Source: Gramella sp. Hel_I_59 | GTDB taxonomy: Bacteria > Bacteroidota > Bacteroidia > Flavobacteriales > Flavobacteriaceae | Direction: 5' to 3' | Assembly (NCBI RefSeq): GCF_006714895.1 | Contig: NZ_VFME01000001.1 | Span: forward strand, 2,480,001 to 2,544,000 | Length of the DNA: 64,000 bases | Shown here: piece after piece, positions 46,533-64,000 of the stretch | How positions within the stretch are numbered: position 1 is the stretch's first letter | Layout of the letters: each line of letters begins with the position of its first letter | The notes under the pieces: model-generated | What the model saw: the letters and a program-made list of their open reading frames with translations, nothing else | What the model was told of the DNA's origin: nothing | The model's database searches: none | Translations under genes and position numbers: made by a program

Positions 46533-46557
46533 TTGCGGAGAAAGAGGGTTTTGAACC
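46533..46557 (-). repeat. tRNA 3'-end fragment, likely attachment site (att) of the element
   Basis: On the minus strand the sequence reads GGTTCAAAACC then CTCTTTCTCCGCA, the T-loop and acceptor 3' strand of a tRNA (probably tRNA-Ser), ending at the terminator. Beyond the T arm no cloverleaf can be made. Such a fragment beside an integrase gene is the usual left junction of an element that entered the 3' end of a tRNA gene; the restored tRNA should lie at the other end, outside the window. Confidence 0.7.
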
Positions 46558-46696: not shown

Positions 46697-47941
46697 ATGA
46701 ATTATTCTTTTAGGCTTAAATACCCAAACATAGACAAGGAATCTCTTATCTACTTTACAGCTTCATTTAAGAACGAAGGTAAGACCTTTGTCTATTCTAC
46801 TGGAGAAAAAATACATCCTAGAGATTGGGATTTTAAAAATAAGCGTCCAGCAAATTTATCGGGAAGAAGAAAAGATGCTGAGATTCGAAGAGCTATAGAA
46901 ATACAGTTATCCAGATACTCTAATTTTTTTATCGAGTTGATTAGCAGATACAAAACGATAAATGAGAATCTGACGATTGAAATGGTAAAGGACGAATTCA
47001 ATACGGAGTTTAAAAAGGTCAGTAAAAATGCTAATGATTTTTTCAAAGTATATGAATTGTTCTTAGAGGATAAAAGAAATGATAATTCTGATCAAGCCAA
47101 TACAGAGACAACGATCAAGCGTTATGAGTATAACAAAACTTTACTAGAAGATTTCCAGGCGCATAAATCTTACAATCTTAGATTTAATACCATCAATAAA
47201 GATTTCTACAATGCATTTATTCACTATAGTGTAAAAACGAAGAACCATTCTGCAAATACGTTGAGTAGAAATATCGGCCTCTTTAAAACTTTTATGAATT
47301 GGTCTATTGCAAACAAATATACCTATAACGAAGAGTTTAAATCATTTAAGAATATCAAGCGTTTCAAGACAGATGAAATTGCGCTTACCAAAGACCAGGT
47401 AGACGAGATTTATCAGTTTGATCTTAAAAAGAACGAGAAATTAAAGAGAGTTCGTGATTTATTCGTTTTTGGTTGCTGCACTGGGATGCGCTATTCAAAC
47501 TATTCTAAGGTGAAGAAAAATGATATCAGTGACGGTTTTATTAATGTCATTGACGGTAAGGATAGATCAAAAAAGCTATCAATACCTATCAATAAATATT
47601 CTAAGGAGATTTTAGAAAAATACGACTACGAGCTTCCTAGAATCTCAAATCAAAAGTTTAATGATTATCTAAAGGAGTTGTTTGAGGAAATGGAATATGA
47701 TCAAGTCATAAAAAAAACGATGCGTTATGGAAACGATATTGTAGAAACCGAGTCCACATATGCAGACAGAATCAGTTCGCATACAGCCAGAAGATCATTT
47801 ATTACCATTATGAAAAATGAAGGAGTTCCCGATAAGGTTATTATGAGTTATACCGGTCATAAAAGTATAGAGGTTTTCAATAATTACTATAGGCCAAATC
47901 AAGAACATAGAATCAATTTTATGAAAAATGTATGGAGTTAA
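46697..47941 (+). CDS. Tyrosine recombinase (site-specific integrase)
   Basis: A 414-residue phage-type integrase of the Bacteroidota kind, with an N-terminal arm-binding domain, a SAM-like core-binding domain (about 115-215) and the catalytic domain. Catalytic residues are Arg265 (GCCTGMRYSNYSK), His362 and Arg365 (SSHTARRSF), His388 (YTGHKS) and the nucleophile Tyr397 or Tyr398 (NNYYR). It would insert and excise the element at the neighbouring tRNA-derived att site. Its 3' end overlaps the next gene by 10 nt. Confidence 0.95.
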   Translation: MNYSFRLKYPNIDKESLIYFTASFKNEGKTFVYSTGEKIHPRDWDFKNKRPANLSGRRKDAEIRRAIEIQLSRYSNFFIELISRYKTINENLTIEMVKDEFNTEFKKVSKNANDFFKVYELFLEDKRNDNSDQANTETTIKRYEYNKTLLEDFQAHKSYNLRFNTINKDFYNAFIHYSVKTKNHSANTLSRNIGLFKTFMNWSIANKYTYNEEFKSFKNIKRFKTDEIALTKDQVDEIYQFDLKKNEKLKRVRDLFVFGCCTGMRYSNYSKVKKNDISDGFINVIDGKDRSKKLSIPINKYSKEILEKYDYELPRISNQKFNDYLKELFEEMEYDQVIKKTMRYGNDIVETESTYADRISSHTARRSFITIMKNEGVPDKVIMSYTGHKSIEVFNNYYRPNQEHRINFMKNVWS

Positions 47942-53872: not shown

Positions 53873-54268
53873 ATGAATCAGTTAGCACATCTAAGTTACA
53901 GTTTCGAAGAAGTTGAAATTTTGAAAACTCTTGCGAAATATCATGATCAGCCAGACATTGCTGAAAAGTTTTTATTCGCCGGTTTAAGCGAATATGAATA
54001 TACCCGGGTAAAAAAAATAATACAAAAATTTTACCTCGATGGTATATGGGACTTTGAAGACACTGCAAATGGCAAAGGTCAATCCACATTCAATTATGAT
54101 CTGAAAGACTACATACTTAAATATCCCAATCCTATTCCTAGCGAGTACAAAGAAGATATTGAGATAAACACCATTTCGGAGAAGCTTTATGCTTCAAATC
54201 TCGATAAGTCAGAACTGAAATATATCTCTGCACTTATCAAAAAAGATCTTATTGACCAACCTAAATAA
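53873..54268 (+). CDS. Small cytoplasmic protein of unknown function
   Basis: A 131-residue acidic protein, mostly helical by composition, with no recognisable motif, signal peptide or membrane segment. It begins 75 nt after the nested hairpin and ends 6 nt before a lipoprotein gene, so the two are likely co-transcribed. A domain of winged-helix shape is possible for the YSFEEVEILKTLAKYH and YTRVKKIIQKFYLDGIWDF parts, but this is a guess. Confidence 0.65.
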   Translation: MNQLAHLSYSFEEVEILKTLAKYHDQPDIAEKFLFAGLSEYEYTRVKKIIQKFYLDGIWDFEDTANGKGQSTFNYDLKDYILKYPNPIPSEYKEDIEINTISEKLYASNLDKSELKYISALIKKDLIDQPK

Positions 54269-54957: not shown

Positions 54958-55182
54958 ATGAATATTAGTTTCACTAAAAAACAGGAAGAATATATCTCCA
55001 AGCAGGTTTCTTCTGGAGAGTACCAGAACAACAGTGAGGTAATTCGAGATGCCCTTAGACTACACGGTATTTACCGAGAAAAAGTTATTCAAGATCTCAG
55101 AAAAGAAATTGAACTTGGCTGGGATGGCCCGGATAGTTCCATGACCATGGATCAGATTATTGAATCCAAGCGGAAATCTTAA
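54958..55182 (+). CDS. parD: ParD-type antitoxin
   Basis: A 74-residue antitoxin with an N-terminal ribbon-helix-helix domain: MNISFTKKQEEYISKQVSSGEYQNNSEVIRDALRL read over its turns, the classic ParD pattern, and a C-terminal disordered arm (WDGPDSSMTMDQIIESKRKS) that wraps the toxin. It binds its own promoter, here probably the palindrome directly upstream. Its stop overlaps the toxin start by one base (TAATG). Confidence 0.92.
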   Translation: MNISFTKKQEEYISKQVSSGEYQNNSEVIRDALRLHGIYREKVIQDLRKEIELGWDGPDSSMTMDQIIESKRKS

Positions 55183-55475
55183 TGGATCATTATATTTTAT
55201 CCAAGAAAACTCAGGAAGATATTAATGATATATATGAATTTGGCGTTAATAAATTTGGCCAGGATCAGGCTATTGAATATCTAATCGGTTTGAGAACTCA
55301 CTTTGAACTTCTTCTAAAAAATCCACTAATAGGTAAAAAACGTGATGAAATTAAGGAAGGACTATTTAGCTTTCCCTTTATATCTCATATTGTTTTCTAC
55401 CGGATTTTCAATAATCATATTAGAATAGTTCGGGTACTTCATGGAAGTCGTGACATCAAAAAATTCATAAAGTAA
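55182..55475 (+). CDS. parE: ParE/RelE-family toxin
   Basis: A 97-residue toxin of the RelE/ParE superfamily. It begins YILSKKTQEDINDIYEF, has the central NPLIGKKRDEIKEGLFSFPF and ends HIRIVRVLHGSRDIKKFI, typical of ParE-like toxins that poison DNA gyrase. Pairing with ParD supports the ParE side over mRNA-cleaving RelE. The pair stabilises the element, inferred from the general role. It ends 5 nt before hsdR, so transcription may read through. Confidence 0.92.
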   Translation: MDHYILSKKTQEDINDIYEFGVNKFGQDQAIEYLIGLRTHFELLLKNPLIGKKRDEIKEGLFSFPFISHIVFYRIFNNHIRIVRVLHGSRDIKKFIK

Positions 55476-60578: not shown

Positions 60579-61757
60579 ATGGACTTGTCAAAAGCAGAAA
60601 ACTTACTTTACGAGTCCGGTGAAATTGTAAAAACGCACCAGGACGATATTAAAGAAAAAGGCGAAGACTTTAATATCTTTTCCATTTTAGATATGGAGAC
60701 TAAAGAAACCAAAACGCATTCGGCAATGTTGGTTGCCTTATTGGACCCTACTGGAAATCATTATTATGACGAACTATTTTTAAAGCTATTTCTGGAAGAG
60801 ATCGGATATAGAGACTATCAGAATGAAAATTTAAAGCTTGTTAAAGTGAAAGCTGAATATCCTCTTGGCACTATTTCTCAAGCTTACGACAGCGGAGGTT
60901 TTATAGATATACTGATTACCTTTCCATCTGGGAAAGCGATAGCTATCGAAAACAAAATTAATGCAGGTGATCAAAAAAATCAATTATATAGATATAGTTT
61001 GTATAAAGGGAACATGTGTGCATTGTACTATTTGAATCTTTTTGGAAAGTCACCCACGAAGGAAAGTTTGCATACTTTAGCAAAATCTGATTTTAAAATT
61101 ATCTCTTATAAATTTCAGATTTTAAAATGGTTAGAGAATTGTCTAAATATTACCAAAGAAGGCTCTATAGTTGAAAATGCAATTAGGCAATACTACATAC
61201 TAATACAAAAACTTACCATTACTATGGATAGGCCATTAGAAGATAAATTAAACAAGCTTATTGCAAATAATCTTAACGAGGCTGAGTTTATACGTACACA
61301 TTATCAAAATGTTGTCAATAAGATCAGAGAAAGATTCAGATCAGAACTCCTGAAAAAACTGAATGATTCACTAACACAATGTATTGTACAACCGAGTCAT
61401 CCTATCAATCATACCTATTCAAAAATATGGTTGACTCCAAGCGTTCCAAATCAAAAAGCCATTAAGTTTGGTATCGAATCATTCTCAGGAAAAAGTAAAA
61501 ATAATAATGGACGCATATTTATTGGAATTTACGATGAACAAAGTAATTATGAATTTAAAAGAGATGGGGATTATAGATTAAGTTCCTGTTGGCCAGTTGT
61601 AAGTGATATTACTACACCAGATCAAAACCCATTAAACCTGGGCAGTATGCAGACTTTGGAAAAATTAAATTCTGATGAAAATTATTTTGAAAATATGCTA
61701 GAAGCAAGTTCCGGGCAAATAATAAATTTTATTAGAACCTATTTTGAAGAAAATTAA
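60579..61757 (+). CDS. PD-(D/E)XK nuclease family protein
   Basis: A 392-residue protein of the PDDEXK_4-like family. The catalytic residues are Asp110 (FIDILI), Glu124 and Lys126 (AIAIENKINAG), followed by a conserved QKNQLYRY; near the start HSAMLVALLDP is typical of the family. The gene starts 3 nt after the hsdS stop, so it is in the same operon as hsdRMS. Its role is unknown: an extra nuclease, a type IV-like restriction factor or an accessory of the R-M system are possible. Confidence 0.85.
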   Translation: MDLSKAENLLYESGEIVKTHQDDIKEKGEDFNIFSILDMETKETKTHSAMLVALLDPTGNHYYDELFLKLFLEEIGYRDYQNENLKLVKVKAEYPLGTISQAYDSGGFIDILITFPSGKAIAIENKINAGDQKNQLYRYSLYKGNMCALYYLNLFGKSPTKESLHTLAKSDFKIISYKFQILKWLENCLNITKEGSIVENAIRQYYILIQKLTITMDRPLEDKLNKLIANNLNEAEFIRTHYQNVVNKIRERFRSELLKKLNDSLTQCIVQPSHPINHTYSKIWLTPSVPNQKAIKFGIESFSGKSKNNNGRIFIGIYDEQSNYEFKRDGDYRLSSCWPVVSDITTPDQNPLNLGSMQTLEKLNSDENYFENMLEASSGQIINFIRTYFEEN

Positions 61758-61791: not shown

Positions 61792-62730
61792 TTAATCTGG
61801 AAAAATCAATTCCAGGATAGTTATTTCACCTGTTGGCTTTCGATCATTCATGGGGATTTCCTTTCCAGCTGAAATTCGCCAAACTTCAAGCATATCTTCA
61901 TGTTTTAATGCTAAGAGTAAGCATAATAAAGTGAACGGTTTAGGACCACATGGTGCTAAAATAACTCTATTTTCTTTGATTAATTGAGTACAAAGATTAT
62001 CCATTAAAAAATAAGTATATTCTAAATCCATAATTGGATATTCATATACATTTTTTTCAGCAACTTGGGTTAAAATCGTTTTGAGTATCTGTTTGGCTTC
62101 AGTATAGTAGTTTGAATTATAACTTTGATCTGTATGAAAAATGTAAGGAATTGCATCGAAATATTCCTTCAATCCGAAAACTTTATTAGGTTCGTTACCT
62201 AACCCAATGACTAATGAAGTAGGTTTAGTTGGTATTCCAAAATTACAGTAACCGTATAAAGGTTCGACAATTCTGTTAGGGGATTGATCGGGCTTTTCAT
62301 TAACATGCTCTGCATGTGAATATCCGAACAGAATTTTTGCTTTATTTTTCTTATCAATATGAAAAATTGAATAAATTATATAAGAGTACCAATTACGGCT
62401 CATGGAAGAATAATCAAGATAGATTACAGGATCATCATTTTCTGAGATAACCTTTTCAACGGCAAGAGAAATTTTATTTAAGAAAAGTGTTTCATTCTCA
62501 TGCTCTTCGGCCAGATAAAATTCGAAACCTAATTGCTTATATCTCGTATCGTTCTTGATTCTATTTTTGGAATTTTTGTAGTGATCAAAACAAATTACAA
62601 GTCCATTTTTTATAATTGATCGAAATTTGTTTGCTTGGAAAGTTGCCCTATTTTCAAAACCGGATGCCCCAATGAACAAATCGATTTTATTAATATTCTC
62701 TAATTTTTCGAAGTGTTGTACTTTAAACAT
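61792..62730 (-). CDS. Unknown protein, second gene of a two-gene ATPase unit
   Basis: A 312-residue cytoplasmic protein that I do not recognise. It alternates hydrophobic strands with helices in a Rossmann-like way: DLFIGASGFENRATF near the start, NGLVICFDHYKNS, VIYLDYSSMSRNWYSYII, SLVIGLGNEPNKVFGL, and near the end RVILAPCGPKPFTLLCLLLAL and VWRISAG. The SGFExR start and the APCGPKPF loop look like conserved sites. The gene follows the ATPase gene by 2 nt on the same strand, so they are co-expressed. A sensor or effector role beside the ATPase is inference from position in a defence region. Confidence 0.8.
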   Translation of the reverse strand: MFKVQHFEKLENINKIDLFIGASGFENRATFQANKFRSIIKNGLVICFDHYKNSKNRIKNDTRYKQLGFEFYLAEEHENETLFLNKISLAVEKVISENDDPVIYLDYSSMSRNWYSYIIYSIFHIDKKNKAKILFGYSHAEHVNEKPDQSPNRIVEPLYGYCNFGIPTKPTSLVIGLGNEPNKVFGLKEYFDAIPYIFHTDQSYNSNYYTEAKQILKTILTQVAEKNVYEYPIMDLEYTYFLMDNLCTQLIKENRVILAPCGPKPFTLLCLLLALKHEDMLEVWRISAGKEIPMNDRKPTGEITILELIFPD

Positions 62731-62732
62731 CT

Positions 62733-64000
62733 TTAGAAGATTTCAGTTTGATGATTGGTTGGTTTTTCACCTCTTAGAATAACACTTAATTTCACAAACG
62801 AAATAATCCGGTTTGGTATTTTGTATCTTGGAGTAAGAAATGCTGACAATCTAAACCTTTTATTAATTACGCCTGTTTTGGACAAACTCTCGACAGGATC
62901 CAAATAAACAATAGCACCTAGATGTAATGCCGTCTCTAATAATGCTACAATCTTTGCATTAATATCTACGTCTACAATAAAGGTTGTAGGTGAAGATTTT
63001 TGAAACTCGTTTGATACTAACTTTTGGAAAAAAAAGTTTCCAATTTTATCGATCAAATCAGTTGCCAAATTGAAATCCGAATTGTTTACAGTAATCGTAG
63101 AATCAGGATGATTTTTCAATAAGTTGAAATATTTCTTAGAAGCAACTGATATTACGCTGGACTGGCTATTTTTAGAAATTGGAAAATCACCCGAGTTATT
63201 TTGATTTAAAATCTCATTTATCAACCCAATTAATAACCGAGGATTACCATCACATATTTCATAAATATAAGGTACACCAAAGTGAATAGGTGGATTGCGC
63301 CTCGTTCTATTCTTATAAATCAATCGATAGATTGCATCAACCTTATATTTCAGAAAAACACTTTTCTGTAATGCTGGATCGTTTGTGAAGGGTTCGTCTG
63401 AATTAATACCTCTTTTATCTATAAATTGTTTAAATGAATCATCTATTATGGCTAATCGTTTGAAAAGGTAATACAGTGCACTTTTTTTCGCTGTAGAAGG
63501 ATATAATTGTGAATTTTTTTTATATCCTATCTGTTCCTTTTCAAAGGAATTTAAGCTGTTTAACTCATCCACTATTAGCGTATTTAATATCCATTCTCCA
63601 AATATGCTATTTACATCAAGGACACCACTGTCATATTTATTTATAATCTTTTTCTCAATTAAGCGAGCAGAAAATCTTGACCACTTATTAAGGCCCTCTT
63701 CGTCATATACCCAAAGTTTGACTGAACTAAAATCATTCCCCTGAGTAACATCTATTTCATTGTTTTCAATATCAAATAAAGGAGTAGTAGTTAACTTAAA
63801 TATAAATTTTTGGTCAACGCTTCTGAGAAACGAAACTAATTTCATTTGTAAAAACTTTGGAACTATTTCGAGCTCATCGAAGCATAGCGCCCACTTCATA
63901 TTATCTTTAAAATCAATATTTTCCTCTACTACTTTACAACCTAGCTTGGTCAGATCGAAAAATTCGTTAAAAACATAATTAGGGAGGTTTCCACGAAAAT
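62733..64000 (-). CDS. AAA-type ATPase (ORC/CDC6-like), N-terminal part outside the window
   Basis: The frame is open to the right edge, so the gene continues beyond it. Upstream of the first ATG in view (63899) the sequence still reads as protein (GNLPNYVFNEFFDLTKLG). The visible part has a Walker B-like KWALCFDELEI followed by FLRSVDQKFIFKLTTTP (sensor-1 position), the pattern of P-loop ATPases related to ORC/CDC6 or STAND proteins; the Walker A is expected outside. A long helical and winged-helix-like C-terminal region includes YIYEICDGNPRLLIGLINEIL (a sensor-2-like GNPR). Paired with the 312-residue protein (2-nt gap). Family assignment is tentative. Confidence 0.72.
   Translation of the reverse strand, partial: FRGNLPNYVFNEFFDLTKLGCKVVEENIDFKDNMKWALCFDELEIVPKFLQMKLVSFLRSVDQKFIFKLTTTPLFDIENNEIDVTQGNDFSSVKLWVYDEEGLNKWSRFSARLIEKKIINKYDSGVLDVNSIFGEWILNTLIVDELNSLNSFEKEQIGYKKNSQLYPSTAKKSALYYLFKRLAIIDDSFKQFIDKRGINSDEPFTNDPALQKSVFLKYKVDAIYRLIYKNRTRRNPPIHFGVPYIYEICDGNPRLLIGLINEILNQNNSGDFPISKNSQSSVISVASKKYFNLLKNHPDSTITVNNSDFNLATDLIDKIGNFFFQKLVSNEFQKSSPTTFIVDVDINAKIVALLETALHLGAIVYLDPVESLSKTGVINKRFRLSAFLTPRYKIPNRIISFVKLSVILRGEKPTNHQTEIF

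Follow-up and report, generated by a model that had tools for sequence, protein, structure and literature searches.

CARF domains are best known from type III CRISPR systems, where they receive cyclic oligonucleotides. Makarova et al. (2014, PMC4012209) described a kinase-AAA-CARF fusion (of the CARF6 type in PADLOC's naming), in which a CARF part is joined to an AAA+ ATPase with an arginine in its P-loop; two further reports (PMC10853773, PMC12839542) place ATPases of the ORC/Cdc6 clade (i.e. SspC, BrxC and BrxD) in the DNA-modification defence systems SspABCDE and BREX, and the DefensePredictor account (PMC13092281) lists two metallophosphatase-containing systems, DS-8 (which also has a P-loop NTPase) and DS-9. 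Here we describe a four-gene operon of Gramella sp. Hel_I_59; it straddles the right end of a 64,000-nt stretch (the window; positions 2,480,001 to 2,544,000 of contig C1, NZ_VFME01000001.1, in a single-contig genome of 3.44 Mb), and encodes on the minus strand, in this order, a Dam-type DNA methylase, a metallophosphoesterase (MPP), an AAA+ ATPase and a 312-aa CARF protein. Like the CARF6 fusion, the operon couples a CARF part to an AAA+ ATPase with a P-loop arginine (GSRGCGKT), but it keeps the two in separate genes, has an MPP instead of the kinase and adds Dam. Like BREX and SspABCDE, it brings together in a single operon an ATPase of the ORC/Cdc6 clade and an enzyme that modifies DNA, but it lacks PglZ and phosphorothioate genes and has a CARF protein and an MPP; the metallophosphatase is common to DS-8 and DS-9, whose HAD or NACHT protein it lacks. 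We rate the operon as a probable variant of modification-coupled defence.

The gene for the CARF6-type protein, the last of the operon, lies at 61,792..62,730 (minus strand), and after a gap of 2 nt the ATPase frame (62,733..64,000, minus strand, with its stop at 62,733) runs off the window end. Both frames had been placed correctly in an initial annotation, made from the letters of the window, which proposed them as a candidate undescribed two-gene defence unit, and the four motifs quoted there (ALCFDELEI, GNPR, SGFENR and APCGPKPF) are all present in them. Since the genome is a single contig, the missing part of the ATPase gene was available in the window's right flank (L002, in which window coordinate equals L002 position + 61,499; G and L numbers denote genomes and loci): the whole gene (617 aa) spans L002:1234-3087 (minus strand) and is preceded, beyond the window, by the MPP gene (L002:3089-4231, minus strand; 380 aa from a TTG) and by that of the Dam-family methylase (L002:4228-5076, minus strand; 282 aa). 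With intergenic gaps of -4, 1 and 2 nt the operon is tight, and its G+C content (0.316) is below that of the right flank (0.40). The two-gene unit was rejected, as the window's own operon has four genes and an enzyme gene also stands before the ATPase in all 11 genomes where the ATPase is matched at full length. As to 'undescribed', the word does not apply to the parts (the ATPase falls in a Pfam family and its partner is of the CARF6 type); at most it fits the operon taken as a working system.

The ATPase belongs to the Pfam family ORC-CDC6-like (PF24389; E 3.4e-99, 333.6 bits, cut-off 27) and, once completed, shows an intact Walker A (GSRGCGKTT), whose residues G44, R46, G47, G49, K50 and T51 are invariant among 19 aligned homologues. 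The Walker B residues D237, E238 and E240 and the sensor-2-like N448-P449-R450 are likewise invariant (conservation beyond chance), so that profile membership, Walker A, Walker B and sensor 2 are found together and the catalytic motifs are intact. Its predicted model aligns with archaeal Cdc6/Orc1 and also resembles STAND ATPases. The MPP matches PF00149 (E 7.4e-16), scores slightly below the cut-off for wHTH-Calcineurin_assc (PF24408; 25.1 bits, cut-off 27), and has homologues that begin near the ATG at codon 5 of the TTG-started frame. Its nearest solved chain is Lmo2642 (E 5e-13; SbcD, E 0.002), and by sequence the enzyme leans towards the cyclic-nucleotide phosphodiesterases, although it could be a nuclease. 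The methylase scores 229 bits against TIGR00571 (cut-off 114.85), so that one part of a type II restriction-modification (R-M) system, a DNA methylase, is present, and has 2dpm as its nearest solved chain (E 1.9e-48); no cognate restriction endonuclease was recognised by Pfam among the four operon proteins. In all 14 operonic Dams compared (L002, L012, L014-L016, L020, L022, L023, L025, L027-L029, L033 and L034), an arginine replaces the lysine of the FLKW motif, whereas one R-M-type Dam and two housekeeping ones have the lysine; judged from these sequences, the operonic Dams seem to form a separate clade.

The 312-aa protein, initially regarded as impossible to place in any family, matches the PADLOC CARF6 profile PDLC01915 (E 8.7e-59, residues 13-310), while the Pfam and NCBIfam profile scans gave no match. 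In its predicted model (pLDDT 87.3) the protein has a Rossmann-like CARF fold, with CARF structures heading its VIA-align list; a new fold is ruled out by the profile and structure matches. Its conservation also exceeds chance (D106, Y137, G178 and G262-P263-K264 are invariant among 19 aligned homologues), in agreement with the initial annotation. The motif [DN]x[ST]xxx[RK], which follows strand 4 of CARF domains (Makarova et al. 2014, PMC4012209), occurs in the N-terminal half of 18 of the 19 homologues, and its place in the C-terminal half is taken by PxGPK. Comparison of the two halves as profiles gave no significant sign of internal duplication (probabilities of 0.5 and 4.6 per cent), and thus the term 'tandem CARF' is based on the match in structure and on the name given by PADLOC.

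The pairing of ATPase and partner recurs in other genomes, as does the whole operon, which occurs across Bacteroidota, Pseudomonadota, an acidobacterial metagenome-assembled genome and Nocardioides. At E <= 0.001, CARF matches were found in 4 of 395 genomes of the phylum and 6 of 397 of the family (the window's own genome being counted in both sets); three of these matches were weak (E 2.5e-4 to 7.2e-4) and were dropped: an AcrB-family transporter (G289), a BshC (G519) and a match not recovered on re-scan (G440, L017). In each of the five relatives left (G312, G138, G623, G521 and G694) MPP, ATPase and CARF stand in a row, with Dam in front in four and, in G138, on the other strand about 3 kb off. 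Among 72,556 plasmids, separate tblastn searches with the ATPase and the MPP returned an identical set of five records, two of which were also found with the CARF protein; within the annotated stretches, four records carry Dam-MPP-ATPase plus a following gene, and that of Pseudoalteromonas donghaensis has no Dam. The gene after the ATPase is CARF by single-sequence search in the Cupriavidus, Pseudoalteromonas and two Sinorhizobium plasmids, and was assigned by position and alignment in the Methylobacterium plasmid. Genome contigs yielded at least 10 ATPase loci (among the matches listed: Chryseobacterium, Bryobacteraceae, a beta-proteobacterium, Cellvibrio, Acetobacteraceae, Pseudoalteromonas, Aliivibrio, Gemmobacter, Nocardioides and Thalassolituus); in these ten, MPP is always adjacent and CARF is adjacent in nine (the remaining locus, L032, is a 3.7-kb contig ending 98 nt past a short ATPase frame), and Dam lies in front in seven, is absent from two, and in one is encoded on the other strand and truncated where the contig ends. 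Over 14 loci the pairwise distances of the four proteins correlate (r 0.87-0.95, with none of 2000 permutations as high), as expected of a jointly inherited unit. Phages and viral contigs gave no copies (the viral scans used a few short patterns), and E. coli genomes gave no near DNA match by a method that would miss more distant ones.

Several of these loci have neighbours of their own. A CHAT-domain gene and a second MPP gene lie just past the operon, on the other strand, in the Methylobacterium plasmid (L022, 11478-14950); an HNH protein and a protein of 614 aa that no Pfam family matches precede the Dam-less MPP-ATPase-CARF of the P. donghaensis plasmid (L021, 1643-5006); and the Dam-less three-gene form of Aliivibrio (L031, 502-6383) stands beside a DUF2357 protein, an AAA protein that we read as McrBC-like and a ResIII-type helicase. 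At L013 (25-2182), a Dam adjoins a DUF6996/DUF6997/DUF7226 protein about 3 kb from MPP-ATPase-CARF, the two perhaps forming a separate R-M pair.

One search with the ATPase family profile placed 25 of 395 genomes above the cut-off (flanks were taken for 8, and most of the others match the P-loop region only), and over most of its length the ATPase is matched in 11 genomes (G000, G312, G138, G164, G689, G694, G521, G623, G656, G522 and G668). In all 11 a CARF6-type gene directly follows the ATPase, and the gene before it encodes MPP in six, PRTase-CE in four (G164, G689, G522 and G668) and HD-CE in one (G656). Two genomes with partial matches (G078 and G259) carry a kinase-AAA-CARF fusion or a kinase-AAA gene plus CARF. 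The methylase is exchanged as well: six of the seven relatives with other enzymes that were examined have a DNA methylase upstream, of the N6_N4 type in G164, G689, G078 and G259 and of the C5 type in G656 and G522, and the seventh (G668) has a HAD/SIS-type gene alongside, with no methylase seen beside the locus. As the pairing of ATPase and CARF6 is kept amid changing neighbours, these two form the constant part and the enzyme and methylase type the variable one. Partial matches to the ATPase family with no CARF gene in the fetched flanks came from G403, G561 and G634 (of 11 genomes in a second search) and from G266 and G005 (of the search of 395). PRTase-CE or HD-CE holds the MPP slot at the loci L065, L080, L081, L082 and L083, and four of these five have an N6_N4 or C5 methylase upstream. 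In relatives, the Pfam families PRTase-CE (PF24390), HD-CE (PF24391) and wHTH-Calcineurin_assc occupy the position of the enzyme or the C-terminus of the MPP, and the consecutive Pfam numbers suggest that the authors of these families had seen such neighbourhoods.

The distribution of Dam is in line with a role for host methylation. A Dam above the cut-off was present in all 17 MPP-type genomes tested; in the window's family, by comparison, 14 of 199 genomes had one, and two of those 14 carry the operon. In 12 of the 17 MPP-type genomes the Dam above the cut-off is the operonic copy (in Cellvibrio and Thalassolituus, the sole Dam above the cut-off), the other five being G138, G774, G778, G779 and G939. 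Pseudoalteromonas rubra (L030, G778) and Aliivibrio finisterrensis (L031, G779) have no Dam at the locus and a strong one elsewhere in the genome, in a trpS-gph-rpe-dam-damX-aroB context (read from the open reading frames). After this pattern had been seen, further carriers were sought in the order of G778, where the same was expected: the ATPase occurs in 2 of 158 genomes (G778 and G939), and G939 has MPP-ATPase-CARF with no adjacent Dam and one Dam in a gph-rpe-dam context. Thus all three carriers with a housekeeping-type dam (rpe-dam context) are without an operonic copy, and the chance that all three would fall among the five genomes lacking one is 10 in 680 (0.015). Taken together, the presence of Dam in 17 of 17 genomes and the lack of an operonic copy where a housekeeping dam is present are read most simply as a need of the other three operon genes for Dam-methylated host DNA. 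Against this link stand the small counts and the non-independence of the lineages; furthermore, in any lineage where a housekeeping dam is usual, only the absence of Dam from the operon is informative.

The operon probably occupies one end of a mobilizable element that has integrated into the chromosome, in line with the cargo-end position proposed in the initial annotation. A tRNA-Ser(TGA) (L002:5336-5421, minus strand; ARAGORN), beyond the window and about 260 nt upstream of the methylase gene, is overlapped at its 3' end by a 15-bp repeat (L002:5335-5349), whose left copy (46,534..46,548, an exact 15-bp match inside 50 of 61 matching positions, and a probable attachment site) adjoins a tyrosine integrase gene (46,697..47,941, plus strand; PF00589, E 1.2e-17). 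Since the repeat of the tRNA end recurs beside the integrase, the operon is probably the right-end cargo of an integrative element of about 20 kb, which also encodes a MobB relaxase, ParDE, a type I R-M system (towards which the ATPase-CARF pair points convergently, as also proposed) and the PADLOC candidate PDC-S26. The latter, a PD-(D/E)XK_4 protein (60,579-61,757, plus strand; E 1.8e-144), is encoded directly after the type I R-M specificity gene and convergently with the CARF gene. The ParD/ParE toxin-antitoxin pair (54,958-55,475, plus strand) precedes the type I R-M operon, and a 131-aa protein (53,873-54,268, plus strand) has a sub-threshold Imm41 match only (E 0.0075).

We consider the operon to be probably defensive, with a possible role against phages, and hold a methylation-gated defence to be as credible as all other explanations combined. 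On this assumption, the Dam-type methylase would provide a self mark by modifying host DNA, with GATC or a similar site as the probable target; the constant core (ORC/CDC6-like ATPase and CARF protein) would load on DNA and detect what is unmarked, the CARF protein binding a nucleotide or otherwise gating the switch; and the exchangeable enzyme, here the MPP, would execute the response by cutting unmarked DNA or hydrolysing a nucleotide. A wider proposal, that the relatives form a modular superfamily of restriction-like immunity in which an ORC/CDC6-like loader ATPase reads methylation and, with no cyclase involved, a CARF protein relays the signal to exchangeable enzymes (phosphoesterase, phosphoribosyltransferase-like, HD or kinase), is more tentative. 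Slightly less credit still, though by no means a negligible amount, goes to an abortive or nucleotide-signalling defence, in which the ATPase would sense a phage component in the manner of STAND proteins, the CARF protein would bind a nucleotide signal, the MPP would make, degrade or deplete a nucleotide, and Dam would only protect against another arm or tune expression. The CARF fold, the resemblance of the ATPase to STAND ATPases and the closeness of the MPP to Lmo2642 (SbcD matching at E 0.002) all speak for it, as does the replacement of the MPP by PRTase-CE and HD-CE, which are of nucleotide-acting classes. Metallophosphatases are also found in the defence systems DS-8 and DS-9 (PMC13092281). 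Such signalling would however leave Dam in 17 of 17 carriers unexplained, and it lacks a known cyclase: Cas10 (PF22335) has no match in the window's genome nor in G312, G138, G623, G521 and G694 (same phylum), and the one CD-NTase profile tried (SMODS, PF18144) was over the cut-off in none of 16 carriers. On these grounds type III CRISPR and CBASS were rejected as identities of the operon, and the lack of Cas10 palm2 and SMODS in its own genome makes classical cyclic-oligoadenylate signalling less likely. Weighing against such a discount, Cas10-palm matches over the cut-off occur in 4 of the 16 carriers, one of them strong (G774, 8.9e-18); as an E. coli control also matches, this profile is not specific, and most of these matches may be other cyclase domains.

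A role outside defence, with the ATPase acting as initiator or partition factor in the maintenance, replication or transfer control of mobile elements, seems to us improbable. The location of the operon on an integrative element and on plasmids would fit it, as would the alignment of the ATPase model with archaeal Cdc6/Orc1, but the Sinorhizobium plasmids carry their own RepC, the Gramella element encodes an integrase and a relaxase of its own, the neighbourhood contains a type I R-M system and the PDC-S26 candidate, and the exchange of MPP, PRTase, HD and kinase would be typical of conflict systems.

Among the systems already named, DS-9 was rejected (the MPP scores 65.5 bits against NF053862, DS9_1, cut-off 420), and so was MADS, for which ATPase, MPP and Dam give only mad8, with 14 bits over ATPase residues 33-66. 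PADLOC assigns no system name to the MPP or the ATPase beyond weak matches to the CARF6 fusion and mad8. The part families are already catalogued (Pfam, PADLOC), and a fusion of CARF, kinase and AAA was described in 2014 (PMC4012209); among the papers listed in the literature searched, to which the main CARF classification and a 2020 immune-system survey (either of which may describe such neighbourhoods) did not belong, there was no description of the operon nor of its Pfam families joined as one system.

The methylation gating put forward above implies that the three-gene form would be tolerated only in Dam-methylated cells. Moreover, a CARF protein fixed to a loader-like ATPase and a DNA methylase, with an output enzyme that is swapped among relatives and in a genome where neither Cas10 nor SMODS gave a match, raises the question of what a cyclase-free CARF senses. 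If the wider proposal is accurate, CARF would connect the marking of DNA as self or non-self with the output of an effector, and would do so outside CRISPR and CBASS; a common role would also be suggested for the ORC-CDC6-like, PRTase-CE, HD-CE and CARF6 families.
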